Part shown: positions 1-46,613 of the stretch, in pieces
How the letters are laid out: each line of letters opens with the position of its first letter
Position numbering within the stretch: position 1 is the first letter of the stretch
DNA from: Liolophura sinensis
Taxonomy: Eukaryota; Mollusca; Polyplacophora; Chitonida; Chitonidae
Direction of reading: 5' to 3'
Length of the DNA stretch: 64,000 bases
NCBI RefSeq assembly: GCF_032854445.1
Contig: NC_088304.1
Coordinates: 12,661,704-12,725,703 of the forward strand
Program-made: the position numbers and the translations under genes
The notes under the pieces: generated by a model
The model's input: only the letters and a program-made list of their open reading frames with translations
Told to the model about the DNA's origin: nothing
Databases searched by the model: none

Positions 1-317
1 TAAAATCGATAAAAAATGTTATTGGAAAGTTATACAAACGAATAAATTATTCAGTAAGAACCATTAACAAATTCAACTATCAATCTTGATTCATTCCTTA
101 ACAACTTAAAATACATGTACATTGCTGAATAAAACCATCTGGGCCTCATGAAAACCATTCTATATTAACAAAGTTCATATCACATGTAAAGTGATTTATT
201 TGTTTCTTTGCTTCAGTACCGCCTAAAATAATTAGATTAGTGTTTATACCTTATTAACTTTAATAAATTTTTTATAGTAAAATTGTTTTCAGTACTTTAG
301 TAACGTATGCGACATAC
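1..317 (-). other. Intron 2 of A1 (partial)
   Basis: AT-rich intronic sequence between A1 exon 2 and an exon 3 that must lie beyond the left edge, judged from the A2 and A3 layouts. I see no coding signal or transposon here. Confidence 0.7.
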
Positions 318-1529
318 CTTTGGTTTCCATGACAATTTTGCGAATGCCTCCATAGCCATCCAGGTCCATGACATACATGGAACAAAGCGTCTGCTGAATG
401 TCGGGGTTGTTGAAATAGACTGGGTCTGGATATCCTCTTCTGGCTGGATCCTCTGTACACTGGCAAAACAAAAATAGAAAACATTACCGATATGGTGTCA
501 TAAGCTGCAACGCATGCGCATTTCCAGAAACAGACACAAAGATGCTCAGGGCAGTTAATAAGAAAGATATATACGAGCATTTTGATGGACGTCATGCATG
601 CCAACAGTATTTTTTAGTGAATTTATGGTGAAATCAATAACAATCTATCAAACTAGGTGGGAGGAAATTTAAACCCGTTTTATGGACATAATGCATTGTG
701 TTAAACAAGGTCCACTTTGAAGATGTATAGGTTGCCTCTGCTCAATTAACTTTTCAAAGATTTCGGCTACTGTGAAAGCGGGAATAATTTTGATCAGGAT
801 GCTTTTCCCGGTTTACATACTTCATCATTTTCAAAAACATTTCAACCAGATCAAATGAATAAAATGTCAGAAATGCAATCTGCTGTTATTATTGGTTATA
901 AATGCAAACAAATGGATTGTTATAGCTATGTACAAAAAGAAAAAAAAACAACAAAAAAGCGCAAATTTGCAATAGATAGCTGCGACATGTGGCAAACATT
1001 TTTTGCCACATTGTAGTTAGGTTTTTTTTTTTAAATGAATGACCCACGTCAAAGGAGAGAATGAAAAACAAATTCAGTGACCGACAGACTGCCAAGCAGC
1101 GTGGCCAAAAAATCTCCAAGTCGCAGCAGGAATAAAATAAGTTGTGGAGTTTAAGCTTTCTCGATCTGTTAATGTTTTCTGAACGAACATGAATGCCTAT
1201 ATGGCATGTGAAAAACATCCTAAAATATGGTTATCATTTCAAGATTCGCAATCATGTGGAGAGAAAAACAACTCCGATCTTACATTGGGGAATAGATCAT
1301 TCCTTAGGTCTGGGTTCAGCCATCGGCCAGTTCGGGATCCGATCACATTGTTTCCGGCGATGTAGATGTCTGCATCCAGTCCGTTGTGACTGTTCCATCG
1401 GTCCGTCTCAAACTGGGTGCGGCCACCCTGAGCCAAAATCTGGGGGTAGATCGTTACCGTAGACTGACAGGTTCCATGTGTAACTAATACCGAAAACAAG
1501 ACGGCGAAAATTGTTGGAATTGCAAACAT
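318..1529 (-). CDS. Type A secreted GH86-like glycoside hydrolase, copy A1 (exons 1-2, partial)
   Basis: Exon 1 is 1529-1284 (82 codons, ATG at 1529, donor GTAAGA, phase 0). Exon 2 is 459-318 (142 bp, acceptor gccag, donor GTATGT, phase 1). Exon 3 with the catalytic residues lies off the left edge. Exon 1 encodes a hydrophobic signal peptide (MFAIPTIFAVLFSVLVTHGT) followed by VTIYPQILAQGGRT and TDRWNSHNGLD, which are shared with every paralogue in the window. Exon 2 begins CTEDPARRGYPDPVYF. No lesion is visible in these two exons; MDLDGYGG replaces the QDLDGYGG of A2 and A3. It is transcribed divergently from C1. Whether the gene is functional cannot be judged without exon 3. The family call rests on the full-length copies. 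Confidence 0.75.
460..1283 (-). other. Intron 1 of A1
   Basis: AT-rich intron bounded by GT-AG sites. Equivalent introns with the same boundaries lie at 20,819-21,636 and 38,518-39,342. No other feature is seen. Confidence 0.7.
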
Positions 1530-1576
1530 CTCTGTGACGTGTCTTCACCTGTGACCAAGACTTCCGATGATCGAGT

Positions 1577-1590
1577 TCATATATCGCCAC
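1577..1590 (-). promoter_or_regulatory. TATA-like element upstream of A1
   Basis: Read on the minus strand, gcgatatatgaact lies about 50-60 bp before the A1 start codon, and it is kept upstream of A2 and A3 (about 39,634-39,646). A second TATA-like stretch (cctatatact) lies about 40 bp further upstream. This is motif inspection only. Confidence 0.3.
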
Positions 1591-3397: not shown

Positions 3398-4661
3398 ATG
3401 CCACAGCTAGACCGTCGTGTACCATTCACAGACATGTTTCAATTTGGGCTCTTTCTCCCGATTGTGTCTTGTTTCCTAGCACAATCCCAGTGCCGGCTAC
3501 ACAAGTCAGCTGTGCAGGTAACAATCTACCCACAGATTCTGTCCCAGGGTGGCCGGACCGGGTTTGAGACGGACCGATGGAACAGCCACAACGGACTGGA
3601 CAAAGAACTTTACCTGACTGGTAATAAAGTTGTTGGATCGAGGACTGGTCGGTGGATTTTTCCCGATTTTTACAATGGTATATTTGCCAATGTAAGTTTT
3701 AAATTAACTTAATGTCTTTATGAAATTTCAAATAATGTACAACGTATTTCAAAGAAAAGCATCAGCAGGATCCTGCATGTCACAATAATCATACATACTT
3801 GATCGTAACTACGATTATAACTATTTATGCCTACAACGCGTGTTGCTGCGGTAGTTACATTCAACTTAGCATACGATAGTTTGTAAAACAGAAATATAAC
3901 TTATCTTTCAGCATGACCCAGCGTTGTCTATATGTATGAGTAATCTTAAGCAGCCGGGAGTAATTTTAAGCAGTCGGGTGAAATACACATGGTGAAATGG
4001 TCGAATATAGTCAAAGATGTTAAAAACTGCAAAAGAATTAGCACTTGCGGTGTATCCGTTAGAGGTAAACAGTTAGTTTCAGAGTAATACTTACCTAAAA
4101 TGGGTCGGACAAAAAGTGACAAGTATGATCTTGCAAAAAACAAAAAAATAAATAAAAATAAAGAGAGAGGAAGATTAAAGGTCAACACACTCTTATTTAT
4201 AGTCAAGGTATTGTAATTGTTTTAAATTAAATTCATTCATGGGTATATCTCTCAATGGCGACAATCATTGTGGAATTGTTCCCGAATCATAACGGGACGG
4301 TATCTAAACAGGGTTTCTGTTTATAAATATCCAGTGTATAGAGGAGGAGACCCACGACCATCCGGAAGTTGGTGCCAGTCCTACCCATGCACGGCCGAAT
4401 AGGTAGCAAGGCATGAGCTGGACAAAACAGGAATCTGTCCTATACATCATAGGCGTTTCACTCACCAAGCCTAAAGTTAAAATGAATTATTTAACCGATG
4501 ACGTATCTCTATTATACAGGCTACCGAAGATCCATACAGACCTGGCTATCCTAACCCCAGCTATTTTCACAGTCCAGCAGTCCAACAGAAACTCTCTTGG
4601 GAACACGTTATGGATATAAACTTCTATGGGTTTAATAATAGTATAGTCATGGAACCAGGTG
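3398..4661 (+). pseudogene. Type C GH86-like hydrolase, copy C1 (exons 1-2 only)
   Basis: Exon 1 is 3398-3691 (98 codons, donor GTAAGT, phase 0) and exon 2 is 4520-4661 (142 bp, acceptor atacag, donor GTAAGG, phase 1). Both are open and splice-competent, and nearly identical to C3. Exon 1 has a secretory signal (from Met13: MFQFGLFLPIVSCFLAQ) and TDRWNSHNGLD. Exon 2 begins ATEDPYRPGYPNPSYF. No type C exon 3 follows: the sequence runs into a SINE and then an inverted C-like relic. Alone it cannot make an enzyme, since both catalytic glutamates are in exon 3. The next same-strand exon 3 is that of B1, in a compatible phase, so a chimeric transcript is conceivable but unproven. Confidence 0.8.
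3692..4519 (+). other. Intron 1 of C1
   Basis: Intron with GT-AG ends. It contains a reverse S2 SINE fragment at about 4,338-4,423. The unit 3 counterpart (41,750-42,759) holds a longer version of the same S2 fragment. Confidence 0.65.
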
Positions 4662-5079
4662 GTAAGGAAAATGTCTTTATTATTTTTGGCCAAACCGGAG
4701 AAATGCAGCATCTTTCTCAATTTGGCTTTGTTGTTGAGCAAGACAGTTGCATCAGATACGGTGTAAAACAACCTCAAATGTGTCGGAAGCACGTTAAGGA
4801 ACATTTACTGCTGGTCACACGCGCGTTATAAAACTTCGCTAGCATATAGCGATATCAGCCGAATGTTCTAACCAAATTAACCAACCTGTTGTGAAACTCG
4901 CTGAACCAACAGCTGTCCATGGCAATCCCGTTTGTTCATGAAAACTAATCACATTTCCTGAGCGTATACCAAACCAGTTATAGTGTGCCCACCTCCATCG
5001 GGCTGCCTTACTTAGACACCCTGAGGTTATGACCTTTATCAACCTAAATGCGGACAGATGCATGTGTGGCCGAGTCCAT
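4662..5079. other. Sequence after C1 exon 2
   Basis: This matches the first part of C3 intron 2 (42,902-43,320). No coding exon is seen. Confidence 0.6.
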
Positions 5080-9097: not shown

Positions 9098-10887
9098 TCC
9101 TTGTGTCCTTCCGTCATCATTAAAAACTGGTGACAGCTTCTCTTTACATGAATAAATCCTAATTTCTTACTTCATATGTCTTCTTACTTCTTTAGTGGTT
9201 ATTGTTGAGCATTGTTTTGAGAACTGGGCTTGTAGTTATTGACCTGGAACGCCCAATTTAGTTGATGGTTAGCTTACCAATGTCTGTTTTGACGCATAGA
9301 TTTAAGCGGCTTTCCATATTATTTATGTCATATTAAGACATTTTCCCACTGACTAGGTTGACGGGCCTTGAACAGGGAATTTGTAGATTTGCCCGCTCTC
9401 ACTGTTGATAGGGACCTTAGTGACAACAACTCGATCGATGTCGCCCCTGTGGCCAACTCCCGTTGACAACCGCTTGTTTCCAACACTGTGTTGTGCATGT
9501 ATAAATTTATCTGTAGGTAGGGAAGTATGTCAGTGACTTGCCAAAAGTTCGGTGGATTACCCACGAAACTAGGTTTTCTTCTACCCATGCAAATTACCAT
9601 AATACACCACAATCCCGAAAAGATAAGACTTTATTATGACTCGGTGTGTCGGGATTGTATTTTGCCGTCATCACCTTCATGATTGTATACTACGTATGGG
9701 CCCAAGGCTTTTCAGTAGTAATTCAGGAGTGTTTGCACCATCGTATGAGAGGAAAATTCGCCAGTATAGCGTTAGCAACATGCAGTCAATCAGTCAATCG
9801 TAAATATTGCAGAAGTGGCGTTAAACCATAACCATTCATCAATCAGTCAGTCAAATATGTTGTTACCCATGCGGGCGATCAATAATATAACGTTGTCGTA
9901 TGAATCGCAAGTTGTACTCACAAAAACATTAAACTAAGAAGAAGTTAGTATGTACTTATTTATTTGATAATTTGATTGTTGCTTAATGTCATAGGCTTAT
10001 TCAAACAATTTTCACTCAATAGATTACGGTCAGTTTGATGGGAGGAGAAAACCACAGTGCCCGACGTAAATCACCCACCTTCGACAAGTTACTGAAGTGA
10101 TGAACAAATATGCAGACCATACTGATGGAAGACAAGTGGTCTACAGAACATGACTGCGCAAACGCACGCGAGCATTGTGTCTTTTGGTACAAACGTTTAT
10201 TGTCACCCTACGAACAGTGAATGTAAAGGAATCTAGAAATTCCCTGGATGTTTCTCTGCGATCGAGATGCAAGCACCATGAACCATTTGACGACGACACG
10301 TTTTAAAGTCGTTATCTTAACCCAAACCATGTGGTTGGTTCCAGCTACACTAATCTCCAATCGTTCTACATATATTAAGTAGATTATCTGTAAGCTCTCG
10401 GCACTCACATATAGAAATGTTCGAAGAGATGGATGCCGTTCTGTTGCTTGTTACACCCTTGTCGGCGTTTATCCCTCGCAGTACCTCTACCTACACGGTG
10501 ACGATCTACCCGCAGATTCTGTCCCAGGGTGGTCGGACCCAGTTTCAGACGGACCGATGGAACGGCCACAACGGCCTGGACCCGGAGAACTTCATCTCCA
10601 ATAACCTCGATGTGGGATCGCGGACTGGCCGATGGCTGAATCCTGACCTAAACAATGACATTTTCGTCAATGTAAGTTATTTCTGTTTGAGAGGTTCCCG
10701 ATGTCTGTTTTACATTGTTCAGTTCAAACCCAAAACGTTCTTATTTTTTTGACTGGTACTCCAGAAACTTTCACTATATTCTCACTCTTTCAAGTTGTTG
10801 CCTAGGTTTAGAAATATATAAAATCAATCAAATTCACTACCAACAATACCTTTATAGTGGGTATGTATCTCCTAATGTATATGAATT

Positions 10888-11232
10888 GACCGGCCCCGAT
10901 AACGTAGTTGGTAGAGCGCCCGTTTCGGGAGTGGTAGATCCAGGATCAATGCTGGGTCGAGTCACACCTAAGACATTAAAAGAGGAAGTTGTAACTTGGC
11001 TTTCAGCATGAATGCGATAGTGTAACGACAGGTTGACCCATACCAGTATAATGGCTCGGTCGGGGCTGCTTACTTGCCCTCGGTAAGGCGTCTCAGTGAA
11101 GCAGCACTAGATAAAAGAGGGGTGGAAATCCGTCCTGCAACAAGGAGGCACATTGCATGCACTCTAAGAATTCTTTCGTCGTCATATGACTGAAAAATTG
11201 TACGACTTTAAACCCCAGGCACTCACTCACTT
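10888..11232 (+). mobile_element. SINE S1 in B1 intron 1
   Basis: Nearly full-length S1. The tRNA-like head contains an A box-like gtagttggtagagcg and B box-like ggatcaatgctgg; the body is followed by ccaggcactcactcac. The same insertion is in B2 at 28,428-28,770, so it predates the duplication. Confidence 0.8.
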
Positions 11233-11536
11233 CCTCTATGTATTGTTTTTGGACAATATTGTCGTCAACCAATGCACTCAAGTCTTGGTCTATACAACAG
11301 TGTTCAGCACTATCAATTAGAAAAAAGTATTCCAACCACATTTTCTTGGAATCAATGTAGACCTACATAAACATCGTAACTATATATTGCTTAAACCAAG
11401 GACTTATTATGGTATAACACGTGTGACAGGTAACCAAAACCCACAAAGACCATGGGATAGCTTAAGCTTTTATCCATGATAACGAACGTTATCCTTGGAA
11501 AACTCGCTGATAGTGGCACATTTTAATTATCAAAAA

Positions 11537-11700
11537 ATGTCGTTTTACATATTTGTTGGTTACTTAGTCAACAGAGGACCCAAGCAAAACGAGTTATCCT
11601 GATCCGAACAACTTTAATGTCGTTTTATCATTTAGTTGGTTACTTAAGCTAACAGACGACCCACGCAAAAGGTGTTATCTTGATCCAAGATACTTCAAAG
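11537..11700 (+). repeat. Two 80-bp cassettes copying the intron 1/exon 2 junction of B1
   Basis: Two tandem units (11,537 and 11,617) each contain atgtcgtttta..., a tttgttggttactta-like acceptor stretch and the start of exon 2 (for example caacagaggacccaagcaaa, ttatcctgatccgaa). They carry only the first 45-50 bp of exon 2 and then revert to intron-like sequence. The unit 2 counterparts are at about 29,080-29,240. Confidence 0.75.
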
Positions 11701-12559
11701 TGAGCATACATTCAGCCACTAAACCTGAATTAATCGATAAAGTAGTATTCTAGAAATGTTGAAAAATATTTTAAAACGTCTACACGCTAATCAAGAAAGT
11801 AAATAGCAAACAATCAAGGTATGGCAGAAAATACAAGCAAAAGTGTCTGATACCTAACCAAAGTGTGTCAGCTGTTTTCCGTGTTCAAAAGGCCAGTGTT
11901 TCTTTTAGTTTGACGATTAGTCAATTCGATGTTCGTAGACACAGCTGCCCTGCTCGTCTTTGTCTTGCACGTGTGTAAGCATTTGGCCCAGCTGGCTGTA
12001 AAGACTTAAGGAATTTCCGAACATAGCAGGGCCATTTTATTGATAGTAGACCCTTTCGTTTGGATTTTAGGAAGATATTTTCGTAATAAATCTGACTTTG
12101 CTAAGGAAAAGTGTTGCAAATTCACAATATTTTTCTTCAAGCAATGATTCTCCCGAGGTGGTTTTCTTGTCTGCTCCCCCTGATATCCTGCCCAACATGT
12201 GCTCATTATGACACGGGCAGCCGTTCTCAGTTCCCTGCTCATAAATGTGTGATTCAAAATGCATTAGTTTAACACTTAAACTATCCGCAAAATCCAATTT
12301 ATTGCATCGATATCTGTCTCTCCACTAGAAGAAACCACACTGACCAAGTAGAGCTGATATTTGTTTTGACATGACAGCGCTGGTGATTGGCCAAGCTCAT
12401 GAGGGCCTTTTCAACATGGCTACTCGCAGTGAATTGTCCGTCGGTGCCATGTCCCCAATGCTGAACATGTTATCAAAACTTTACAGAATTTATTTAAGTT
12501 TTCTCTTTAATAACTGTGTTCTATATCATTTTTTCTGTGTATATATAGTGGCAGACTTT

Positions 12560-12720
12560 ATGTCGTTTTACCATTTCATTGGTTACTCAAGTCAACAGAC
12601 GATTAAAGCAAAATGGATTATCCTGACTCGAGGTACTTTAATGTCGTTTTATATTTTCATTTGTTACTCAAGTCAACAGAGGATCCAAGCAAAAGGGGTT
12701 ATCCTGATCCGAGCTATTTT
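12560..12720 (+). repeat. Decoy cassette plus the true B1 exon 2 start
   Basis: The unit at 12,560 is a degenerate copy of the same 80-81 bp cassette (caacagacgattaaagcaaa). The next unit, at 12,641, contains the genuine acceptor and exon 2 start at 12,673. In unit 2 the pair is at 30,063 and 30,144. Confidence 0.75.
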
Positions 12721-13028
12721 AGCGACCCATCGTTACAAGAGAGGCTCTGCTCAATCTACCTCAACAATCTAGATGGATATGGAAACAATCGGAACATTGT
12801 CATGGAAATAAAAGGTAATAAAAAGTTTTCAAAATTAAATTTTTTAAAGATTTTAAAATATTTTACCAAAATTCTGCGAACATCTGAAGGGCCGAAACGT
12901 TAGACCCTTGAAATCAAAGAACATGAGTGAAGTTTTAACGCCACTAGGCAATATTGTAGCGATATCGTTGTGAGTGGTATTGTACAGATTCTGGAAATTA
13001 TATGTTAGTGTGTTGTTCGGATTTTTCG

Positions 13029-13043
13029 GGGGGGGGGGGGGGG
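13029..13043. repeat. Poly-G run
   Basis: A 15-base G homopolymer in B1 intron 2 just before SINE S2 sequence. Unit 2 has gggaaggggaaggggcggg here. Confidence 0.9.
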
Positions 13044-13079
13044 TGGGGCAGCAGGGCAGCAGGGCAGCATGAAGCAATG

Positions 13080-13398
13080 ACCCCGGAAACCTGCGGATGG
13101 ACATGGATTCTCACCGGGCTCTGCCCGGTTTTCTCCCACCATAATGCTGGTCGCCATCGTATAAGTGAAATATTCTTGAGTATGGCGTAAACACCAATCC
13201 AATGAATAAATAACGGCCTAGGAGCCCCCACAACAATAGCTGTGAGTTCAAATCCAAATCATACTGTCTTCCTCTTCGGCCGCACGTGGGAAGGTCTCTC
13301 AGCAACCTGCAAATGGTCGTGAGCCCGGTTTCGTCCCACCACAATGCCGACCGCTGTCGTATAAGTGAAATGTTCTTTAGTACTGCTTTCACCATATG
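13080..13398 (+). mobile_element. Two SINE S2 copies in B1 intron 2
   Basis: Two consecutive S2 pieces (about 13,080-13,215 and 13,248-13,398) each contain a version of cataatgctggtcgccatcg and gtgaaatattcttgagta. Only the first (30,580-30,712) is present in B2, where the intron is about 440 bp shorter. Confidence 0.75.
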
Positions 13399-15352
13399 GC
13401 TTTACCAATATGACCCAGGTGCGTTATGTATGTGAAAGTTCATTGGTTACTTGGAAAAGGCCACTGATTTACTCTGGATACTAAGATTTTTTGCACAAAT
13501 TATGGCTGGACAGAGGTCGTCAGAGACCAATTAAGGAAACGCTCGATTGAAAATACTAAAAGATAAAAGTTTAGGAATTAAAAATGAAAAGGGTCATTGT
13601 GCATGCTGTGTACTGTACTGTCAGAACATTCGATTTAATGCAGTTTGCTCAAAATAAGGTCATAATCTAGGCTTATCAGGTGCTTGGTTATTTGGATTTT
13701 TGTAAGAAATATATCTAATGTATGAGCCAAAACATCATCCAATAAAACTGAACTAATAAGTTACGATAACTTATGATTCACCATTATCTATTTTTCTTTT
13801 TAGGTCAGTTCTGGCCCAAATGGATGAACACCTCTTTACATGGCGGTGTTTTCCCCAATAACCTAAATGCTGGAGCTGAAATGATCGCGTTACTGGTAGA
13901 CGCCGTGTACAACTACACAAAAGGACAAATCCCGGCGTTTTTCGAGGTCATTAACGAGCCAGACACGCTTTACCAATACGTCACGTGGGACAATGTTATC
14001 ACGTTCCACAAAATCGTCGCCGAAAAACTTCACACAAAGCACCCGCTTCTCAAAGTCGGTGGACCGACGAAGACAGGGGCGGTTTCCAATTTGGATCAGA
14101 AAGATTTCTTTCTCTGGCGACAGATGCGCGATTTCATGAACATGTCGCTGGAACATCTGGATTTCCTGTCCTTCCATCCTTACAATTCGCTAAACTCTAC
14201 TGGGAATTCACACGAGTTTCATGGCATCAACGAAGCTCGCTTGGTCGCTGTGATAGACATGGTAGAAAAGCTACGCCAGTCTTTTGCAAGATGGGAAATC
14301 TGTTCCTATCATCACTAGCGAGTACGGTCAAGGTCGCAGGTTCGTCGATTCGCAAAACTCCAGCCTCTCTCGTGAGGTGGGCATATGCCTTCATGCACAA
14401 TTCGCACATGTTCACTTTCCTGAACCATCGAGGAGTGATGGAACAAGCGGTAGCATTCCTCCTCACACACGTGTCTGAAAATTTCGGCAACGCCAGCATT
14501 TTTTATCAAAACGGCAGCGACACGATTGTAGCAAAGTCTTATCGATTCTGGAAAAATTTCGACGCCAACAACCAATTTCTGAGAGTGGATAGTCAGTACA
14601 ACGGCGAAGAAAGAACGGTTTCTCCGTTAACTCTGTTCAACTCCCAAACTGGTTCCGTTTATGTTCTGTTGAACAATTACATGCAGAAATGGCAAAACGT
14701 CGAATTAAACTTTTACAAGAACTGGGTCATTCCGTCAACTGCGCAATCTACTTGTTTGTATCTAGGTCCAAACAGAATTCCAATTTACCACGCAAACCAA
14801 ACCGTTAAACTTTTTGGCAATATCGTGGAAGTACCACCGGAAAGCACGTGCTTCTTTGCCTTATCGACCACCTTTGCATCACGTGACATTGCAATTGTTC
14901 ACGAATCTAGGGTATACTCCAAAGATATGGTTATTTCCTTTGAAAATCATATCGCTCAAGCTAACATCAACTTACGGGTTATCAACGACCTGGTTTACGC
15001 TCATCTGCGCTTTGCGGTCAGTACCAGCGACATGTCCGCACCGACTCAACCCACGTCAGTGACCATCAACGGTCATCCGACCCACGACTTGTACGCCTTG
15101 TACGATCCGGACAGGGTCACAGGTGTTACCCAGTGGGAGGTGTACAACTACCAAGTCTCCACTGCAGTACTAAAGACAGGCAATAACACCATCAGATTTG
15201 TGTTTCCCCAGACTGATGGTAGAGTGTCAACCGTAGCTCTTATTTTTGGAAAAATGAACCCTTAGCTCTTAGAGAAAATTGTTTTTGGGTGGGTGATGAC
15301 ATTCAACTACATCCTGTTTGCTTCTTTTTATCTATTTATTGATAAAAATTAA

Positions 15353-19934: not shown

Positions 19935-20676
19935 CTGCAACGGGATCATCACCCTAATATTTTGGTCATAAGACATCATTCTAAAGATAGTTCAATAAAG
20001 CCAAATATATTTGCAACATGGAGTCTCTGTCGCTTCTCGGAGCTCTTCGTGTAGGATGTATTTGAGCATGTTCAAAATTGAATTGGAAAGATGAATAGAA
20101 ATTGTTTTTGGTGGTAATGGGTAATAATGGTTACATCAGTTCTGGTGATATTATCACATGTTTGGATATCGAAAGTTAAGACAAATTCTAAAGTTCTATC
20201 GTTGGAAATGGCTATCAGTTTAAATAAATCTCACAAGAGAGTAAAGATGTAATCATAAAATACAATGACGTAGAATGATGCAGGAGTCCGAATATGGTTT
20301 CAGTAAGTAGTTCAAACATTATATCGAAAATTCGTGACAGTGTTAACCAACACTTGTGTAATAAAATCGATAAAAAATTTATTGGAAAGTTTAACAAACG
20401 AATAAATTATTCAGTAAGAACCTTTAACAAATTCAACCATAAATCTTCATTTATCCTTTGACAAATTAAAATACATGTACATTACTGAATAAAACCCTTT
20501 GGGCCTCATCAAAACCATTCTATATTAACAAAATTCATATCACATGTAAAGTGATTTATTTGTTTCTTTACTTCAGTACCGCCTAAAATAATTAGATTAG
20601 TGTTTATACCTTATTAACTTTAATAATTTTTTATAGTAAAATTGTTTTCAGTGCATTAGTAACGTATGCGACATAC
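19935..20676 (-). other. Intron 2 of A2
   Basis: AT-rich intron, shorter than its A3 counterpart (37,349-38,375) because of loss just upstream of the acceptor. No other feature is seen. Confidence 0.6.
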
Positions 20677-20818
20677 CTTTGGTTTCCATGACAATTTTGC
20701 GAATGCCTCCATAGCCGTCCAGGTCCTGGACATACATGGAACAAAGCGTCTGCTGAATGTCGGGGTTGTTAAAATAGACTGGGTCTGGATATCCTCTTCT
20801 GGCTGGATCCTCTGTACA

Positions 20819-31000: not shown

Positions 31001-32318
31001 GTTTTTCGAGGTCATTAACGAGCCAGACACGCTTTACCAATACGTCACGTGGGACACTGTTATCGCGTTCCACAAAATCGTCGCCGAAAAACTTCACACA
31101 AAGCACCCGCTTCTCAAAGTCGGTGGACCGACGAAGACAGGGGAAGTTTCCAATTTGGATCAGAAGGATTTCTTTCTCTGGCGACAGATGCGCGATTTCA
31201 TGAACATGTCGCTGGAACATCTGGATTTCCTGTCCTTCCATCCTTACAATTCGCTAAACTCTACTGGGAAATCACATGAGTTTCATGGCATCAACGAAGC
31301 TCGCTTGGTCGCTGTGATAGACATGGTAGAAAGCTACGCCAGTCTTTTGCAAGATGGGAAATCTGTTCCTATCATCACTAGCGAGTACGGTATAGATCGC
31401 AGGTTCGTCGATTCGCAAACTCCGACCTCCCTCGTGAGGTGGGCATATGCCTTCATGCACAATTCCTACATGTTCACTTTCCTGAACCATCGAGGAGTGA
31501 TGGAACAAGCGGTAGCGTTCCTGCTCGCAGACGTGCCTGTCAACGCCACCATTTTTTATCACAACGGTAGCGACACGATCGTAGCAAAGTCTTATCGATT
31601 CTGGAAAAATTTCGACGCCAACAACCAATTTCTGAGAGTGGATAGTCAGTACAACGGCGAAGAAAGAACGGTTTCTCCGTTAACTCTGTTCAACTCCCAA
31701 ACTGGTTCCGTTTATGTTCTGTTGAACAATTACATGCAGAAATGGCAAAACGTCGAATTAAACTTTTACAAGAACTGGGTCATTCCGTCAACTGCGCAGT
31801 CTACTTGTTTGTATCTAGGTCCAAACAGAATTCCAATTTACCACGCAAACCAAACCGTTAAACTTTTTGGCAATATCGTGGAAGTACCACCGGAAAGCAC
31901 GTGCTTCTTTGCCTTATCGACCACCTTTGCATCACGTGACATTGCAATTATTCACGAATCTAGGGTATACTCCAAAGATATGGTTATTTCCTTTGAAAAT
32001 CATATCGCTCAAGCTAACATCAACTTACGGGTTATCAACGACCTGGTTTACGCTCATCTGCGCTTTGCAGTCAGTACCAGCGACATGTCCGCACCGACTC
32101 AACCCACGTCAGTGACCATCAACGGTCATCCGACCCACGACTTGTACGCCATGTATGATCCGGACAGGGTCACAGGTGTTACCCAGTGGGAGGTGTACAA
32201 CTACCAAGTCTCCACTGCAGTACTAAAGACAGGCAATAACACCATCAGATTTGTGTTTCCCCAGACTGATGGTAGAGTGTCAACCGTAGCTCTTATTTTT
32301 GGAAAAATGAACCCTTAG
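28014..32318 (+). CDS. Type B secreted GH86-like glycoside hydrolase, B2 (intact)
   Basis: Three exons, 28014-28268, 30176-30317 and 30868-32318, encode 615 residues with GT-AG introns (phases 0 and 1). Residues 1 to about 25 form a signal peptide; exon 1 then has VTIYPQILSQGGRT and TDRWNGHNGLD. Exon 2 has STEDPSKRGYPDPSYF. Exon 3 has the likely acid/base in FEVINEPD (Glu184), SFHPYNS, the likely nucleophile in IITSEYG (Glu305), and from about residue 440 a beta-rich C-terminal region. Several N-x-S/T sites suggest glycosylation. A clan GH-A barrel is well supported. GH86 (agarase/porphyranase) is my best family guess and implies extracellular digestion of red-algal galactans. GH39-like enzymes are the alternative. 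AATAAA follows at 32,406. Confidence 0.78.
28428..28770 (+). mobile_element. SINE S1 in B2 intron 1
   Basis: Same insertion as 10,888-11,232; the head reads gttggtagagctcccgtttc. Confidence 0.8.
29080..29240 (+). repeat. Two exon 2-start cassettes in B2 intron 1
   Basis: Tandem 81-bp units at 29,080 and 29,161 correspond to 11,537-11,700. Confidence 0.75.
30063..30225 (+). repeat. Decoy cassette plus true B2 exon 2 start
   Basis: Units at 30,063 (degenerate) and 30,144 (containing the real acceptor at 30,175). Confidence 0.75.
30580..30712 (+). mobile_element. SINE S2 3' part in B2 intron 2
   Basis: Contains ccaccataatgctggtcgcc and ttgagtacggcgtaaacacc. Confidence 0.7.
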
Positions 32319-33601: not shown

Positions 33602-35083
33602 AACTGTGTCAAAAAAGAAACTCAAACCCGCATTTTAGAAATTTTAATATTTAGTTTTAGGACGGCACAACTTTTTTCTTATTGAAGACAGAAGTCAGAA
33701 ATTTGTCAGAATAATAATCAAGATGGTCATGTTAAAAACTGTAATTTCAAAAGTCATCTCACAGACACCAGTTGCTCACCAGGGGGCGTCTTCCTCAGTA
33801 TCTCGTATGACCACCACGAGCTGCAATCACTGCACGGCATCTCTTTGGACAAGAACGGATAAGACGCCGGATTCTCTCCTCGGGAATGGCCCTCCACTCC
33901 TCCTGTAACGCAACGGCAAGTTGTTGAAGCGTCTGTGGCGGTGGCTGACGTTGACGCACGTGTCGATCCAGAGTATCCCACAGGTGTTCAATAGGGTTGA
34001 GGTCTGGTGATTTAGAGGGCCACGGCAAGACATTGACGTTGGAATCCTGCAGAAAGTTCATTGTTGCACGTGCAGTATGAGGCCTGGCGTTGTCCTGTTG
34101 AAAAAGCTGTGTCTGTCGGTCAATAATCGGGAGAAGGTGAGGCTGTAACACGTGGCTGATGTAACGTTGGGCTGTCAGGTTCCCTGGAACGATCACCAAG
34201 TCTGATTTCTGGTTGTACGAGATGGCTCCCCAAACCATAACACTGCCTCCGCCAAATCTGTCCACCTGCCGGACGCAGATGGGCGCAAAGCGTTCATGAC
34301 GTCTCCTATACACACACTGTCTTCCGTCGTGACGTGTCAAAAGGAAACGGGATTCATCAGAAAACCAGATGCGCCTCCAGTTTTGTAAAGTCCATATCCT
34401 TACGTTGTTGTACCACCTCGTAGTCGTAGGCGTCGATGTAAGGAGCGTAGTACAGGTCCAACAACTGGTCTACAGGCACGCAAACCCGCTTCTTTCAGAC
34501 GGTTCCTAATCGTTTGAGCCGACACTCTCCTCAAACCTGGTATTTGTGTGGCAGTCACGGTTGGTAGGGCATGCCGATTACGCAGGTGAAGGACCCGGAT
34601 GTACCGATCTTGAAGTGGGGTCGTGATTCTTGGCCTTCCACTTCTCGGGCGATCGTTGGTCGAATTAAAGTTGTTGTAACGGCCCCAAAGTCGGGATATC
34701 GTTGTTTTGTGAACATTTAGGTGTCGTGCAATAGTACCAAAACTTTCTCCTGCTTGAAGACGACCAATGGCGATATTTCGGTCGGCAGCACTCAGTCGCG
34801 GCATTTTACCGACTGCCTTTCGTCGACAAATAAATGAATAAAATACGAAAGCACATGGGCTTTTATACACCCCCACATTATAACCATGCGTCCATGCGTT
34901 GTGACGTCATAAGCAATAAAATACACTTAGGAGAGAAAAGGCAGTTGTTTGGATGGTAATCTTCACTAAAAACGTGTATAATTTCAATACATTTGGCTAA
35001 AATTTAGTTTGGAAGCAATAACTTTATTCGAAAGAATTTTTGATATCCGAGGACAGGGGATGCGTTTCTTTTTTGACAGAGTT
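33602..35083 (-). mobile_element. Tc1-like DNA transposon, copy 2 (near full length)
   Basis: 1,482 bp, TA-flanked (33,600-33,601 and 35,084-35,085), with the same roughly 20-bp terminal inverted repeats and insertion site as copy 1. It contains a nearly complete transposase gene on the minus strand. Confidence 0.9.
33795..34804 (-). pseudogene. Tc1-like transposase with one frameshift
   Basis: The N-terminal part starts at ATG 34804 (MPRLSAADRNIAIGRLQAGE) with helix-turn-helix regions and RPRSGRPRIT, and runs to the HRRLRLR stretch, where the frame is lost (about 34,430). The remainder continues in another frame with RIWFSDESRF (first Asp), DNARPHTA (second Asp) and KSPDLNPIEHLWD (Glu), the DD34E signature of Tc1 elements, ending at TGA 33,795. 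Copy 1 has the same frameshift, so the element was already dead when the segment was duplicated. Confidence 0.87.
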
Positions 35084-35876: not shown

Positions 35877-38800
35877 CTAATGTGTTATTTTATTATCTCT
35901 CATATTTCCAACCACAAGAGCCACGGTAGAAACGCGACCTTCAGTCTGATCAAACACAAACCCGATCGTGTTATTACCAGGCTTAAGTACCGTTATAGGA
36001 ACTTGGTAGTTATACACCTCCCACTTGGTTACACCGGTGACTCTGTCTGGATCGTACAAGGTGTAAAAATCTTGGATCGAATGGTCATTAATGGTCACTG
36101 ATGTGGGTTGACTTTGGGTGGACATGTCGCTGGTGCTGACAGCGAAACGCAATCGAGCGTAAATAAGGCTGGTAATGCTACTGGGTAAGTTAATGCTGGT
36201 TTGGGCCACATTGCTTTCCAACGATATGACGATGTCTCTAGAGTACAGGGTTGATTCGTTAACGAATGTAACGTTATCTAAGGGAAAGTTTGCAAAAAAT
36301 GTCAGAAAGCAAGTGCTTTGTGGAGGTAAATATAATAGATAGTTTCGGAATGTAACAGTTTGATTGACAAGGATGGGAATTTTGTTCTGATCAAGATACA
36401 AACATTTGGCTTCTGCTGTTTTGGTTTTAATCCAATCCTGGTAAAAGTTTAACTCCACACCTGTTGATGTTTGAGCGTAGTTATGCAAAAGAACCGTAAC
36501 TGTTTTGAATGTGGAGTCTGCAATGGCTAAGGAAGGAACCAGTCTCTCTTGACCATCGTACTGACTTTCCACTCTCAGAAATTGGTCAGTCGTCGTGAAA
36601 GTCTTCCACAGCCTATAAGCCTTCGTTACGTATTTTTCCGTCCCGTTATGGTAGAATAGGCTGCTGTTTTTGGAACTATAGGTGTTGTGACTGAGTATGA
36701 AAGCCACGGCTTGCTCCATCACCTCACGGTGGTTCAGGTACGTAAACATGTGAGAATTGTGCAAGAAAATGTACGCCCATTCAACCACAGACGCCGGGGT
36801 CGCCGGATCGACGTCTACGCCACTTAAACCGTACTCACTGGTGATCAGTGGGACAACCTTCCCTCTCGTTAGAAGAGCGTAGCTTTCAACCATATCGATT
36901 ACAGCCACAAGGCGAGCTTCGTTGATACCGTTAATCCGATGTTCGTTCTGGCGAGCGTAGAAGCTATTGTAAGGATGGAAGGAAAAGAAGTCCATGTGCT
37001 CCAACGACATGTTCATGAAATCTCGTATGGCTTTCCAGATGAGGAAATCTTCCTGATCCAAATCCGCAACGGCCCCAGTGTACGTTGGTCCGCCAACCTT
37101 GAGAAGTGGGTATTTGGCGTGAAGCTTCTGGGCCACGATCTTGTGATATTCGATCACCGTATCCCACGTAACATGTTGCCACAAAGTGTCCGGTTCGTTG
37201 ATGACTTCGAAATAAACGGGTATCCGACCTCCAGTGTAATTATTGACAGCGTCTACGAGTAACAGAACCATTTCAGCTCCGGCATCCAGGTTGTTGGGAA
37301 ACACACCACCATGTTGTGAGGTGTCCATCCACTTTGGCCAGAACTGCCCTGCAACGGGATCATCAGGTGAAAATGGTGTTGGATATTAGATCAAAGTCAT
37401 AGTTCCGTGCAACAACACACCGCATGCTACATCTTTAATTTGTTATATTGAACTATTTTCAACATTCCCAATGAATTAATGAATGATTATAGCTTAACGC
37501 AACACCGATAAAATTGTAGCCAAATCGCATCATTCCTGAGGATTACGTGGAACGAAACACTGAATGTTGCCTCTTTAATTCGATTTATTGAGCCATTTTC
37601 ATCATTCCTGAAGAAATGGATTAATGATTGATTACAATTTATAACGCAACGCCAATATTTCGGTCATAGCTCATCATTTCTAAAGATAGTTTAATAAAGC
37701 CAAATATATTTGCAGCATGGAGTCTCTGTCGCTTCTCGGAGTTCTTCGTGTAGGATGTATTTGAGCATCAAAATTGAATTGGAAAGATGAATAGAAATTG
37801 TTTTTGGTGGTAATGGGTAAAAATGGTTACATCATGTGATATTATCACATGTTTGGATATCGAAAGTTAAGACAAATTCTAAAACTAAGTTCTATCGTTG
37901 GAAATGGCTATTGAGTCTAAATAAATCTCACAAGAGAGTAAAGATGTAATCATGATATACAATGACGTAAAATGATGAAAGAGTCCGAATATGGTTTTAG
38001 CAAGTAGTTCAAACATTATATCGAAAATTCGTGACAGTGTTAACCAATACTTGTGTGGTAAAATCGATAAAAAATGTTATTGGAAAGTTATACAAACGAA
38101 TAAACTATTCAGTAAGAACCTTTAACAAATTCAACTATCAATCTTGATTCATTCTTTAACAACTTAAAATACATGTACATTGCTGAATAAAACCATCTGG
38201 GCCTCATGAAAACCATTCTATATTAACAAAGTTCATATCACATGTAAAGTGATTTATTTGTTTCTTTGCTTCAGTACCGCCTAAAATAATTAGATTAGTG
38301 TTTATACCTTATTAACTTTAATAAATTTTTTATAGTAAAATTGTTTTCAGTACTTTAGTAACGTATGCGACATACCTTTGGTTTCCATGACAATTTTGCG
38401 AATGCCTCCATAGCCATCCAGGTCCTGGACATACATGGAACAAAGCGTCTGCTGAATGTCGGGGTTGTTGAAATAGACTGGGTCTGGATATCCTCTCCTG
38501 GCTGGATCCTCTGTACACTGGCAAAACAAAAATAGAAAACATTACCGATATGGTGTCATAAGCTGCAACGCATGCGCATTTCCAGAAACAGACACAAAGA
38601 TGCTCAGGGCAGTTAATAAGAAAGATATATACGAGCATTTTGATGGACGTCATGCATGCCAACAGTATTTTTTAGTGAATTTATGGTGAAATCAATAACA
38701 ATCTATCAAACTAGGTGGGAGGAAATTTAAACCCGTTTTATGGACATAATGCATTGTGTTAAACAAGGTCCACTTTGAAGATGTATAGGTTGCCTCTGCT

Positions 38801-39588
38801 CAATTAACTTTTCAAAGATTTCCGCTACTGTGAAAGCGGGAATAATTTTGATCAGGATGCTTTTCCCGGTTTACATACTTCATCATTTTCAAAAACATTT
38901 CAACCAGATCAAATGAATAAAATGTCAGAAATGCAATCTGCTGTTATTATTGGTTATAAATGCAAAAAAATGGATGGTTATAGCTATGTACAAAAAGAAA
39001 AAAAAACAACCAAAAAGGCGCAAATTTGCAATAGATAGCTGCGACATATGGCAAACATTTTTTGCCACATTGTAGTTAGGTTTTTTTTTTTTAAATGAAT
39101 GACCCACGTCAAAGGAGAGAATGAAAACAAATTCAGTGACCGACAGACTGCCAGGCACCGTGGCCAAAAGATCTCCACGTCGCAGCAGGAATAAAATAAG
39201 TTGAGGAGTTTAAGCTTTCTCGATCAGTTAATGTTTTCTGAACGAACATGAATGCCTATATGGCATGTGAAAAACATCCTAAAATATGGTTATCATTTCA
39301 AGATTCGCAATCATGTGGAGAGAAAAACAACTCCGACCTTACATTGGGGAATAGATCATTCCTGACGTCTGGGTTCAGCCATCGGCCAGTTCGGGATCCG
39401 ATCACATTGTTTCCGGCGATGTAGATGTCTGCATCCAGTCCGTTGTGACTGTTCCATCGGTCCGTCTCAAACTGGGTGCGGCCACCCTGAGCCAAAATCT
39501 GGGGGTAGATCGTTACCGTAGACTGACAGGTTCCATGTGTATTTAATACCGAAAACAAGACGGTGAAAATTGTTGGAATTGCAAACAT
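35877..39588 (-). CDS. Type A secreted GH86-like glycoside hydrolase, A3 (intact)
   Basis: Exons 39588-39343, 38517-38376 and 37348-35877 encode 619 residues (phases 0 and 1; donors GTAAGG and GTATGT; acceptors gccag and ttgcag). The signal peptide is MFAIPTIFTVLFSV. Exon 1 carries TDRWNSHNGLD and exon 2 carries CTEDPARRGYPDPVYF. Exon 3 carries YFEVINEPD (Glu181, likely acid/base), FSFHPYNS, LITSEYG (Glu301, likely nucleophile) and a C-terminal beta-rich domain ending near VSTVALVVGN. It is the only type A copy in the window seen complete and without lesions. It faces C3 divergently and B2 convergently. Poly(A) signal at 35,822-35,827. The clan GH-A assignment is firm; GH86 is a best fit. Confidence 0.78.
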
Positions 39589-41455: not shown

Positions 41456-44400
41456 ATGTCACAGCTAGACCGTCGTGTACCATTCACAGACATGTTTCAA
41501 TTTGGGCTCTTTCTCCCGATTGTGTCTTGTTTCCTAGCTCAATCCCAGTGCCGGCTACACAAGTCAGCTGTGCAGGTAACAATCTACCCACAGATTCTGT
41601 CCCAGGGTGGCCGGACCCGGTTTGAGACGGACCGATGGAACAGCCACAACGGACTGGACAAAGAACTTTACCTGACTGGTAATAAAGTTGTTGGATCGAG
41701 GACTGGTCGGTGGATTTTTCCCGATTTTTACAATGGTATATTTGCAAATGTAAGTTTTAAATTAACATAATGTCTTTATGAAATTTCAAATAATGTACAA
41801 CGTATTTCAAAGAAAAGCATCAGCAGGATCCTGCATGTCACAATAATCATACATACTTGATCGTAACTACGATTATAACTATTTATGCCTACAACGCGTG
41901 TTGCTGCGGTAGTTACATTCAACTTAGCATACGATAGTTTGTAAAACAGAAATATAACTTATCTTTCAGCATGACCCAGCGTTGTCTATATGTATGAGTA
42001 ATCTTAAGCGGCCGGGAGTAATCTTAAGCAGTCGGGTGAAATACACATGGTGAAATGGTCGAATATAGTCAAAGATGTTAAAAACTGCAAAAGAATTAGC
42101 ACTTGCGGTGTATCCGTTAGAGGTAAACAGTTAGTTTCAGAGTAATACTTACCTAAAATGGGTCGGACAAAAAGTGACAAGTATGATCTTGCAAAAAAAA
42201 AAAATAAATAAAAAAATGAGAAAGAAAGGTTAAAAGTCAACACACTCTTATTTATAGTCAAGATATTGTAATTGTTTTAAATTAAATTCTTTCATGGGTA
42301 TATCTCTCAATGGCGAAAATCATTGTGGAATTGTTCCCGAATCATAACGGGACGGTATCTAAACAGATTTTCTGTTTATAAATGTCCAATGTATAGCGGA
42401 GGAGACCCACGACCATCCGGAAGTTGGTGCCAGTCCTACCCGTGTACGGCCGAAGAGGTAGCAAGGCATGAGCTGGACTTGAACCCACAGCGACCGCATT
42501 GGTGGGAAGGCGCTAGATCATTGCGCCAAACTGGCGTGCTAACTCCCTCAGCAACGGAGACCCAACCCCCCTCTCCCGCTCCCCTTCTTGTCATAGTAGT
42601 TCCTCTGTTAGAAATCTGGTCGCAGTTCCGACGCATATATTCTGTGCTGCCTCACTGAATGACAAAACAGGAATCTGTCCTATACATCATAGGCGTTTTA
42701 CTCACCAAGCCTAAAGTTAAAATGAATTATCTAACCGATGACGTATATCTATTATACAGGCTACCGAAGATCCATACAGACCTGGCTATCCTAACCCCAG
42801 CTATTTTCACAGTCCAGCAGTTCAACAGAAACTCTCTTCAGAATACGTTATGGATATAAACTTCTATGGGTTTAATCATAGTATAGTCATGGAACCAGGT
42901 GGTAAGGAAAATGTCTTTATTATTTTTGGCCAAACCGGAGAAATGCAGCATCTTTCTCAATTTGGCTTTGTTGTGGAGCAAGACAGTTGCAACAGATACG
43001 GTGTAAAACAACCTCAAATGTGTCGGAAGCACGTTAAGGAACATTTACTGCTGGTCACACGCGCGTTATAAAACTTCGCTAGCATATAGCGATGTCAGCC
43101 GAATGTTCTAACCAAATTAACCAACCTGTTGTGAAACTCGCTGAACCAACAGCTGTCCATGGCAATCCCGTCGGTTCATTAAAACTAATCACATTTACTG
43201 AGCGTATACCAAACCAGTTATAGTGTGCCCACCTCCATCGGGCTGCCTTACTAAGACCCCCTTATGTTATGACCTTTGTCAACCTAAATGCGGACAGATG
43301 CATGTGTGGCCGAGTCCGTGGATTATCTCCTTGTTGCAGGACGGATTTCCACCGTTCTTTTATCTAGTGCTGCTTCCCTGAGACGCTTTACCGAAGCCAA
43401 GTAAGCCGCTCCGCCCGAGCCATTATACTCATACGGATGATTTAGTAGTTGCACTATCCCCTTCGTGCTGAACGCCAAGCCAGGAAGCTGCAACTTTCTC
43501 TTTCAAAGTCTTAGGTGTGACTCGACCCAGGACTAACCCTGGATCTCACGCTCCCGAAGCGGACGTTCTAACAAATATGTTAGCAGGGGCCGGTCACGTG
43601 AATACGAAAAAGAGATTCAAATGACGCGACCGCAAAAGGTTAGGCCATGAAAATGTCCTTTTTTGTCAGTTTGTGCTATCATTTATAAATATCATGGACC
43701 ATTTTTTGGTTAGGCTAATCTAAGAACGGGTTGGTTAATGTGGAGGGACATGCTGGTGATCTCGATTTATGCCTGGGTAAATGTTCCTTACCTTAAATCC
43801 GACACATTTGAGGCTGTTTTACACCGTAAATCTCGCAACTGCGTTGCTCGATGAGAGTTACCTCTCTCCGCAACTAAATTTAACTCAGAATTTTATTCTA
43901 GCTGTTCATGTAAATGTTTAAATAGTAACACTCCTTTCACCATAACCCAAAACAAATTATGAATGGGAGGCGAAAATATTTTTTTAATCTCGTGAGGTGA
44001 TTCAAAGTGCAGGACTTTGAATCACTATTACGTCTAGAATGGATTGCAAAGTAACGTCTACACCGCTACAGTGTATCAGTTTCTGTCGTAATGTCGCACT
44101 GTCTTTGATGTGACGTCATCATGATGAACTGGGAAAGAAACATTTGACGTCAGTAAAATGACGTCAAGGTCCTGCAACTAAGCGTTTGACAGTTCATCTC
44201 TCAGTTTCCCAGTATGACATTTAATAACGGTAACGTTCACAGCTCATATACCATGTACACTTCATGTCAGTTACCAAATGGAATGGTTAAAATGCCAACC
44301 TTTCTCTGTACAAATATGGTAGATTTTCTCCCTCAAATGTAGCCTAAACTTTCACTCTACCAGATTCAAACTTATATATCTCTTCAGATATCTCTTCACC

Positions 44401-46613
44401 AAACTGGACACTTTCATTCAACAAATGTGGCGATCACTTTAGTCAAATAAAACAAATGACAGCCCAACCGTAACAAATTTTCTTACAATCAAAAAAGTCA
44501 TCATTGACTCTGCCGTCAATGGTATCTGGCATTCTAGTGTATAGCCCTCGAAATTACTAAGTTAACACTGCCTGCTTCTTCCAGGGAGCTAACTACTGTT
44601 CTGCTCATTTGCGTTTATAACAAATCATAATACCAAAATATTCCAACAATGAAAGCGAACATAAAACACATGTGTTGTATGAACACAAACTTGTGCTCTT
44701 TGCAACAAAAGTCTTGTGTAATATTTGAACAGTTACTATGTTGTGTTGGAATTAAAAGAAGGCCTTGTTTGTGTTTTATTATTTTGTAGCACAAACATGT
44801 GTACTTCATATTTACACATGTATGTGTTCTTTGTGTTGGGGTAACACATTTTTGTGTTGGGGTAACACATTTTTACGTTGAACGAAACAACATAAATTTC
44901 AACACAGGAGTGTTTTTGTGTGAGAAATATACTTCAGCCACTGTCTTCCTGAGACTGACTCTCCGGAATGGGATTTCTTTGTTTCGCGGTATGTTATAAT
45001 TTATGTAATGATATAATTAAAGGCTTAGAGCACAGACAGAAAAACCCGAGCAGCGACGACAGTTACCAAGTTAGAGGTTTATCGGTATTCCAACTGTACA
45101 CATAAGTTCTCATATCTGAGCCAATTATAGGCCCACTACCACTGTGGCTATGACATTTTTTGCAGGAAAGTTTTGGCCCAAGTGGATGAACACCTCACAA
45201 CATGGCGGCGTGTTTCCCAACAACCTGGATGCTGGTGCCGACATGATGGTTCTAATGGTAGACGCTGCTTATAACTACACTGGAGGACAGATCCCGGAGT
45301 TGTTCGAAGTCATGAACGAGCCCGATAGCCTGTGGCCGTACATTGTTTGGGATACCGTGATTCAATTCCACCAGATGGTCGCCCAAAAGCTTCATGCCAA
45401 ATATCCTCGACTAAAAGTCGGTGGTCCGACGAAGACGGGGGCCATTGAAAATCTGGATCAAACAAATTTCAAACTCTGGTACCAGATGCGGGATTTTATG
45501 AACATGTCCTTGACCCACATGGACTTTTTGTCCTTTCATCCTTACAATTCATTGTACTCTGAAGTAAACACCCACCATTTTACTGGGATAAACGAAGCCC
45601 GGCTCGTTGCAGTGATTGATATGTTAGAAAGTTATTCGCACCTCTTAAAAGGCAAGTCCGTTCCGCTTGTCATCAGCGAGTATGGTTTAGGTCCTATTTA
45701 TTTGGATGACGATACCCCCTCGTCTCTGATACAATGGGCGTATATCTATCTTCACAACGCTCATAGATTCACATATCTCCACCATCGAGGAGTCATTGAA
45801 GACGGTATAGCGTTCCTACTGAGCCGCGACAATGGTCGCTTCAAAAACGCCAGTATTTTCAACCTGAACGGCACACAGTCTCATGTTGCCAAGGCATATT
45901 TATTCTGGAAAAACTTCAACAGCGCTGACCAATTCCTTAGAGTAGACAGTCAGTACAATGCTCAAACGAGAATGGTGTCCCCGTCTGCGGTTGTTGATTT
46001 TGGTTCCAGCACACTTAAGGTTCTTTTGCATAATTACGAAGTGGTGTCAGTCCCTGTTAAGATAAACTTTGACCAGAACATGGTCATTTCATCAACAGCC
46101 AAATCAACCTGTATCTATTTAGATTCAAATAAATCTCCAGTCCTTTCAGTGAATCAAACGGTCCAGTTCATCGGAAATACTGTAATTTTACCACCAGAAA
46201 GTTCCTGTTTCTTTGCATTCCGCACGACTTTTCCTCAAAGAAGTATCGTAGTTGTCGAAGAAAAGACGATTTATTCACGGGATCTGGTTATCCCTGTTAC
46301 AAATAATATCGCCCAAACTCGCATAAACTTGCCCAATGTTAAGAATTTGGTTTACGCCAAGCTGCGCTTCGCGGTGAGCTTGACTGATAAAACTGCCCAG
46401 ACGAAACCGAGTGCGGTGAGTGTTAATGGCTATATCACTAACAGTCTATACTCTCTGTACGATGCTAACAGGAACGTAAGTACTACATTATGGGACGTAT
46501 ACATCTACCCAATCCCTGTAACTGCTCTAAAATCTGGCTTCAATGCAATTAACTTGAATTTTCCGCAAAATGGTGGTCACGTGACTACAGTGGCATTGCT
46601 TGTCGGGAGTTGA
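41456..46613 (+). CDS. Type C secreted GH86-like glycoside hydrolase, C3 (intact)
   Basis: Exons 41456-41749, 42760-42901 and 45166-46613 encode 627 residues (phases 0 and 1). Translation may start at Met1 or at Met13; MFQFGLFLPIVSCFLAQ is a better signal peptide from Met13. Exon 1 has VTIYPQILSQGGRT and TDRWNSHNGLD, and exon 2 has ATEDPYRPGYPNPSYF. Exon 3 has LFEVMNEPD (Glu197, likely acid/base), LSFHPYNS, VISEYG (Glu317, likely nucleophile) and a C-terminal beta-rich region. It is clearly diverged from types A and B across exon 3 but has the same architecture. It is the only copy of type C that keeps exon 3. Poly(A) signal AATAAA at 46,635-46,640. Confidence 0.78.
42398..42560 (-). mobile_element. 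SINE S2 copy in C3 intron 1
   Basis: Reverse S2 reaching the tRNA-like head (gagctggacttgaacccaca, then cagcaacggagac). C1 keeps only the first about 80 bp of this element. Confidence 0.7.
43322..43595 (-). mobile_element. SINE S1 in C3 intron 2
   Basis: Reverse S1 with an intact head (gaagcggacgttctaac, gcaggggccgg). It is the intact partner of the breakpoint copy at 5,080-5,318. Confidence 0.75.
44111..44166. promoter_or_regulatory. Cluster of three perfect CRE palindromes
   Basis: TGACGTCA occurs at 44,111-44,118, 44,145-44,152 and 44,159-44,166. This is the full consensus site of CREB/ATF bZIP factors. It is intronic to C3, about 1 kb before exon 3. Function is inferred from the motif alone. 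Confidence 0.5.
44830..44874. repeat. 21-bp tandem duplication
   Basis: Two exact copies of tttgtgttggggtaacacat(t), set in a stretch rich in acacatgtgt-like inverted motifs (44,660-44,900). Confidence 0.85.

Follow-up and report, generated by a model that had tools for sequence, protein, structure and literature searches.

Tandem arrays of chiton genes assigned by sequence to the agarase family GH86

Most known members of glycoside hydrolase family 86 (GH86) come from marine bacteria, and when marine grazers break down agarose the work is usually attributed to their gut bacteria. The closest described systems are bacterial enzymes. BuGH86 of Bacteroides uniformis NP1 (PDB 5ta0, 5ta1 and 5ta5) is an endo-beta-agarase encoded within an agarose utilisation locus; according to its description (PMC5849685), its nucleophile is E322, which is mutated in 5ta0, and the determinants at the -2 subsite are T82 in this agarase and F77 in BpGH86A, a beta-porphyranase of Bacteroides plebeius (PDB 4aw7). 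A further GH86 agarase of solved structure, Aga86A_Wa (PDB 8h97), groups in the tree described below with a gene of Wenyingzhuangia aestuarii (L041). On the animal side, members of GH1, GH3, GH5, GH16 and GH39 are thought to be of bacterial or fungal origin and, like the genes reported here, are part of animal genomes, where molluscs show a varied repertoire; GH86 is mentioned nowhere in the main text of that survey as available (PMC6011409; supplements outside scope). In the literature searched, most subscription journals, CAZy and GenBank annotation lying outside that scope, we came across no GH86 from any animal, molluscs included, and a term search for 'hydrolase' gave nothing in a chiton genome paper (PMC12005716). 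Here we describe a window (the whole stretch of DNA analysed, 64,000 nucleotides) from the chiton Liolophura sinensis, positions 12661704-12725703 of a 36.6 Mb animal contig in a genome of 609 Mb and 632 contigs. The window covers one section of a tandem array of glycoside hydrolase genes built on a three-exon plan. We think it probable that these are host genes encoding secreted GH86 enzymes of the agarase type, which would cleave red-algal galactan and whose family would have entered the animal line long ago.

Gene models were built by searching the DNA with exon peptides and then inspecting splice sites. Three genes in the window, A3, B2 and C3, are intact (Table 1), and the long open frames at 13770-15265, 18473-19750, 30834-32318, 35877-37385 and 45120-46613 correspond to complete or partial third exons of a single family. 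Intron 1 is in phase 0 and intron 2 in phase 1 in all seven modelled full-length genes (A3, B2 and C3, plus D, E, F and G3 of a second array on the same contig). The sequence-only reading of this window had proposed a tandem array of at least three diverged types, and types A, B and C are indeed only 56-62% identical to one another over exon 3. It had also given every copy the same three-exon design; this stands for the intact genes, which share intron phases and GT/AG splice sites, but not for the whole array, where A1 and B1 are broken and some exons stand alone. In a self-comparison of the DNA, the gene-bearing region showed duplicated segments that reach 4.6 kb in length and are about 94-98% identical. 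The array has a guanine plus cytosine fraction of 0.37-0.42, similar to the 0.37-0.41 found elsewhere in the window. Because the third exons span 482-490 open codons and the ratio of nonsynonymous to synonymous substitution rates (dN/dS) is 0.20-0.29 in four recent pairs of array-1 copies, chance can be excluded as the source of these frames.

Sequence comparison places the family in GH86. A profile of the seven full-length chiton proteins matched BuGH86 (5ta1) in the PDB with an E value of 1.6e-35, the agarase 8h97 with 1.6e-31 and BpGH86A (4aw7) with 1.4e-22; the best match outside GH86 was to GH39, at 0.016. The BuGH86 alignment covered positions 73-611 of the 617 in the chiton profile. Searched alone against solved structures, exon 3 of A3 returned GH86 chains only, the best being Aga86A_Wa (3.9e-12); for exon 3 of C3 the E values ranged from 3.9e-14 to 6e-10 with GH86, and GH39 reached 0.14. 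Alignment of the chiton profile with hhalign to a profile built from nine bacterial GH86 sequences gave a probability of 100 and an E value of 1.4e-44 over 569 columns, nearly the full length and including exon 1, so that similarity to characterised members extends over most of the protein. The array-2 protein G3 exceeded the Pfam cut-offs for two GH86 domains (BPA_C, 34.9 against 26.2; Porphyrn_cat_1, 30.9 against 27), and a six-frame search with BPA_C found four places above cut-off, all in array 2 and none in array 1. At E values up to 0.1, BPA_C was found in 7/7 and Porphyrn_cat_1 in 6/7 of the full-length proteins. Three third exons had no match in NCBIfam, and C3 exon 3 had none in PHROGs. 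The (beta/alpha)8 barrel and the two immunoglobulin-like domains that follow it in GH86 are also recognisable, as Pfam domains in G3 and by fold comparison of a model that covers exon 3 only and is not independent of bacterial sequences. This AlphaFold model, of C3 exon 3, was made with an alignment containing 29 bacterial GH86 rows (31 loci minus the truncated L036 and L039) and had a predicted local distance difference test score (pLDDT) of 77.5 and a predicted template-modelling score of 0.82. Its seven best Foldseek matches were all GH86, with query template-modelling scores of 0.68-0.75, Aga86A_Wa being the best; GH30, GH51 and GH39 came far lower. The GH86-like identity proposed from the letters of the window alone is thus upheld by the structure-database matches, hhalign, the array-2 Pfam domains and, with the caveat on its alignment, the predicted fold.

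The positions expected to carry out catalysis are largely retained. Both catalytic glutamates (given for A3, B2 and C3 in Table 1) are present in 6/7 full-length proteins, including all three from the window, and lie 121 (A3), 120 (B2) and 120 (C3) residues apart from NEP to SEYG, in agreement with the spacing of 120-121 residues noted earlier. In exon 3 of C3 they correspond to E52 and E172, invariant across the three window rows and 29 bacterial rows. The glutamine of 5ta0 (BuGH86 E322Q) aligned with the glutamate of chiton SEYG, which makes the latter the predicted nucleophile; the NEP glutamate would be the acid/base, as in clan GH-A generally. The nucleophile position and the fold (a model on the chiton side) are shared with both BuGH86 and BpGH86A. 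The -2 position was read from a MAFFT alignment of 17 rows, a local alignment at a single residue in which agarase and porphyranase types were assigned by place in the tree and not by assay. It is T in 3/3 array-1 proteins, all from the window, and S in 4/4 array-2 proteins; among bacterial rows it is T in 6/7 of agarase type (A in L033) and F in 3/3 of porphyranase type. The T of the window genes occupies the place of BuGH86 T82 (read from L011, 99% identical to 5ta1), and BpGH86A, which has F77 (PMC5849685) where the chiton proteins have T or S, is also the weaker profile match. Because T is shared with the agarase-type rows, our best guess is that the window enzymes use an agarase-like -2 subsite. 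A second specificity residue named in the same study, M396, was set aside: when the chain is numbered so that E322 falls in place, no methionine stands at that position. Each N-terminus has a hydrophobic segment that, read from the sequence, resembles a signal peptide, and each window protein has 9-10 N-glycosylation sequons, compared with 1-3 for each of the four proteins of array 2. These hydrophobic N-termini, together with the sequons of the window proteins, fit secretion.

To place the chiton genes among their relatives, we used 31 bacterial loci from a scan with two bacterial GH86 sequences together with genome searches using the chiton profile, which gave 3 matches in 395 genomes (cut-off 1e-8), 12 in 299 (1e-15), and, at 1e-10, 2 in 244, 22 in 196, 15 in 341 and 4 in 295; these groups partly overlap and each includes its seed genome. 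Bacterial sampling is limited, Planctomycetes and other phyla lying outside it, and the animal side is one genome. In the main tree, which is unrooted and has 71 rows (62 bacterial loci after removal of two duplicates, two PDB stretches and seven chiton proteins) over 625 columns, the chiton proteins formed one clade with support of 100/100 and a stem of 3.31. A quick tree of 65 rows, with six long or odd rows removed, gave a stem of 2.60, and a quick tree of 80 rows, enlarged by 14 rows drawn from 15 additional loci and without five earlier rows, kept the clade apart with a stem of 3.54. Across these three unrooted and long-branched trees the clade remained separate from the non-chiton rows (64, 58 and 73, respectively) and fell inside no sampled bacterial subclade. 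By these comparisons, none of the sampled bacteria was a recent donor of the family. An ancient transfer, which had been suggested from the window alone, is possible: it is compatible with the trees, but no sampled bacterial subclade encloses the chiton clade and the trees have no root.

Contamination by bacterial DNA, or misassembly, would account for genes from a family known mainly from marine bacteria, but we rejected it, with next to no probability left to it, on the grounds of two introns in each gene and a contig of 36.6 Mb. Tc1-like transposase pieces lie within the array, and no close bacterial sequence was found: bacterial genome contigs scanned for patterns derived from the chiton profile gave no relative, and only 5 of 72,556 plasmid records matched, at 29.9% identity or less. 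The chiton genes differ from those of BuGH86 and Aga86A_Wa in the same respects, being two-intron genes in tandem arrays of an animal genome and having low identity to the bacterial enzymes (20-21% between BuGH86 and the chiton model in structural alignment).

Several observations weigh against the assignment to agarase-type GH86 enzymes. The most adverse is the Pfam outcome for the window: taken alone, its third exons scored above threshold for Glyco_hydro_39 (28.8 for the A1 piece and 26.5 for A3; cut-off 26) or Cellulase (B2, 28.3; cut-off 23.5) and for no other domain; those of C3 and the B1 piece exceeded none, and Porphyrn_cat_1 and BPA_C were below threshold where present. At E values up to 0.1, Glyco_hydro_39 matched 6/7 full-length proteins (best 5.8e-6) and Cellulase 4/7. 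The genes might on this basis encode a GH39- or GH30-like animal hydrolase, kin to iduronidases or xylosidases, that resembles GH86 only as clan GH-A members do. The Pfam test, which the sequence-only reading had named as a possible refutation, is ambiguous by itself for the window genes; the ambiguity is resolved by the profile searches, in which the profile that gave GH86 1.6e-35 gave GH39 structures 0.016, and GH39 membership was rejected on that comparison. The low rank of GH30, GH51 and GH39 in the fold search and the match of the C-terminal domains to those of GH86 point the same way, and with the sequence evidence so strongly contrary we regard a GH39- or GH30-like enzyme as highly improbable. 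The fold comparison itself is biased by the 29 bacterial rows and is not independent; a model from the three window rows only was poor (pLDDT 37.4).

The remaining points bear on function and descent. Exon 3 of C3 is only 19-25% identical to the 29 bacterial GH86 rows, and in the 65-row tree the path from the chiton clade to the nearest bacterial row (4.83) exceeds the longest path between bacteria (3.91); because of this divergence, the substrate of the chiton enzymes may have changed. The trees are unrooted with long branches flagged, the chiton stem itself among them in an earlier quick run, array-2 proteins have S rather than T at the -2 position, and one of them, E, lacks the nucleophile glutamate and has A instead. 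A distinct family of animal enzymes, sister to GH86 and unchanged in fold and mechanism but acting on another galactan or glycan, such as the animal's own galactan or another algal polymer, would account for a clade set apart from all sampled bacterial clades by a stem of 2.6-3.5 changes per site and for the array-2 S, and purifying selection is compatible with any function. Such a family would be harder to reconcile with the GH86 architecture, the GH86 chains as top matches, the pair of glutamates and the agarase-type T of the window genes, and we consider it unlikely, if still deserving of some weight.

The amplification proposed from the window is real and extends well beyond it. Genome searches, which give lower bounds on copy number, found at least 23 matches to A3 exon 3, and likewise at least 23 to the exon 3 frame of G3, all on the contig of the window. 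Array 1 extends leftward beyond the window to about 12.54 Mb, and array 2, with the same exon plan, lies 6 Mb away at 18.735-18.784 Mb. With A3 exon 3 as query, at least 12 full-length catalytic exons had no inner stop, six in array 1 (two A-type, three B-type, one C-type) and six in array 2 (D, E, F, G1, G2 and G3); for D, a longer match to G3 exon 3 includes one TAG and the modelled exon 3 is open. Recent array-1 copies are under purifying selection, exon 3 dN/dS being 0.20 for A3 and A0, 0.29 and 0.20 for B2 against two other B copies, and 0.26 between those two; in array 2 it is 0.13 for G2 and G3 and 0.26 for G1 and G3. Between types, dS is 1.6 to 3.7 or cannot be computed, with synonymous sites near or past saturation. 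Recent duplications therefore lie on top of old types. In array 2, non-long-terminal-repeat retrotransposon frames (endonuclease and reverse transcriptase) lie between the near-identical G2 and G3 (locus L005, 2918-6526).

Broken copies are also present, and the family could be a set of decaying relics that no longer serve a function. A1 and B1 are broken or partial, as are copies at contig positions 12541, 12630 and 12655 kb; E has lost its nucleophile, and G1 exon 1 and G2 exon 2 have single-base indels relative to G3 that could reflect either genuine damage or errors in the sequence. The 12 or more stop-free catalytic exons that remain, the low dN/dS between recent array-1 copies and the clean splice sites make general decay very unlikely. 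Gene E (contig 18741507-18745287) is uninterrupted at full length and retains NEPD, with VSAYG in place of the nucleophile motif, and its product is a candidate pseudoenzyme or galactan-binding protein.

Returning to secreted agarase-type enzymes of the host, we propose that the proteins would pass into the gut and cleave internal beta-1,4-galactosyl bonds of red-algal galactan, foremost agarose and to a lesser degree porphyran. They would act by the double displacement of clan GH-A, with the SEYG glutamate as nucleophile and the NEP glutamate as acid/base. Tandem duplication would have raised the dose and allowed a split into types. The family would have entered the mollusc line long ago, from a bacterium or an unsampled source, would have had its two introns before the arrays separated and would then have diverged widely from bacterial GH86. 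A bolder form holds that chitons have an ancient animal agarase family, sister to all known bacterial GH86, that opens red-algal walls without microbes, the paralogue lacking the nucleophile serving as a galactan-binding protein; we advance this tentatively and with more doubt than conviction. The chiton may, as its own GH86 genes suggest, digest the jelly of red seaweeds itself. Intact, duplicated host genes of an agarase family would make the question of who digests, animal or bacteria, directly testable in this chiton, and a family so far bacterial would gain a deeply divergent branch in animals.

The broken copies and lone exons of array 1 are listed with the intact genes in Table 1. The exon-1-like fragment at 7183-7025 is repeated at 24783-24625. 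Tc1/mariner-like transposase pieces (HTH_Tnp_Tc3_2 and DDE_3) on the minus strand at 33795-34906 and 16990-17517 lie within duplicated segments or at their edges.

Table 1. Array-1 genes, exons and fragments located in the window (window positions unless stated; ES, found by exon-peptide search).
Feature	Position	Strand	Details
Gene A3	28026-32318	+	611 residues, intact
A3 exon 1	28026-28268	+	hydrophobic N-terminus, first barrel part, motif GSRTGRW; donor GTAAGT, phase 0
A3 exon 2	30176-30317	+	TEDP..RGYPDPSYF
A3 exon 3	30868-32318	+	remaining barrel, catalytic pair E180/E301, C-terminal domains, stop TAG
Gene B2	39588-35877	-	619 residues, intact
B2 exon 1	39343-39588	-	hydrophobic N-terminus
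B2 exon 2	38376-38517	-	ES, splice sites
B2 exon 3	35877-37348	-	catalytic pair E181/E301, stop TAG
Gene C3	41492-46613	+	615 residues, intact
C3 exon 1	41492-41749	+	ES, splice sites
C3 exon 2	42760-42901	+	ES, splice sites
C3 exon 3	45166-46613	+	catalytic pair E185/E305, stop TGA
A1	10477-15262	+	exons 10477-10674, 12676-12816, 13803-15262; exon 3 frameshifted; broken A-type copy
B1	18476-21882	-	exons 21882-21628, 20815-20675, 19924-18476; two in-frame TGA in exon 3; broken B-type copy
B-type exon 1	1275-1529	-	partner exon 3 open at full length just left of window (contig 12659525-12660994)
B-type exon 2	316-456	-	same gene as exon 1 at 1275-1529; ES
C-type exons 1 and 2	3506-3709, 4523-4666	+	no adjoining C-type exon 3
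Degraded exon-1-like and exon-2-like fragments	7183-7025, 5707-5596	-	exon 2 fragment with broken frame
Additional B-type exon 3 fragment	22269-22461	-	ES, DNA self-comparison
Lone C-type exon 1	23020-23223	+	no adjoining C-type exon 3

Other features of the window lie on the minus strand. A 353-codon open frame at 52529-53590 has several hydrophobic stretches and by eye resembles a single-exon seven-helix receptor, with no Pfam match above cut-off. Short tandem repeats (QQTFSGKL/NP units) make up an open frame at 51519-52148 that is probably a minisatellite, and past the right end of the array, at 61533-62180, lies an exon matching a transfer RNA-queuosine alpha-mannosyltransferase (QTMAN_N, 9.1e-16). 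Elsewhere in the genome, seven COX1 matches about 15.5 kb apart occur at 8348-102844 of another contig (C99), which resembles a head-to-tail mitochondrial concatemer and looks like an assembly artefact or a nuclear insert. The mitochondrial contig, with genes named by eye from translations, carries cox3-nad3-nad2-cox1-cox2 on one strand and nad1-nad6-cob-nad4L-nad4-nad5 on the other, an order we take to be that of chitons and some other molluscs.

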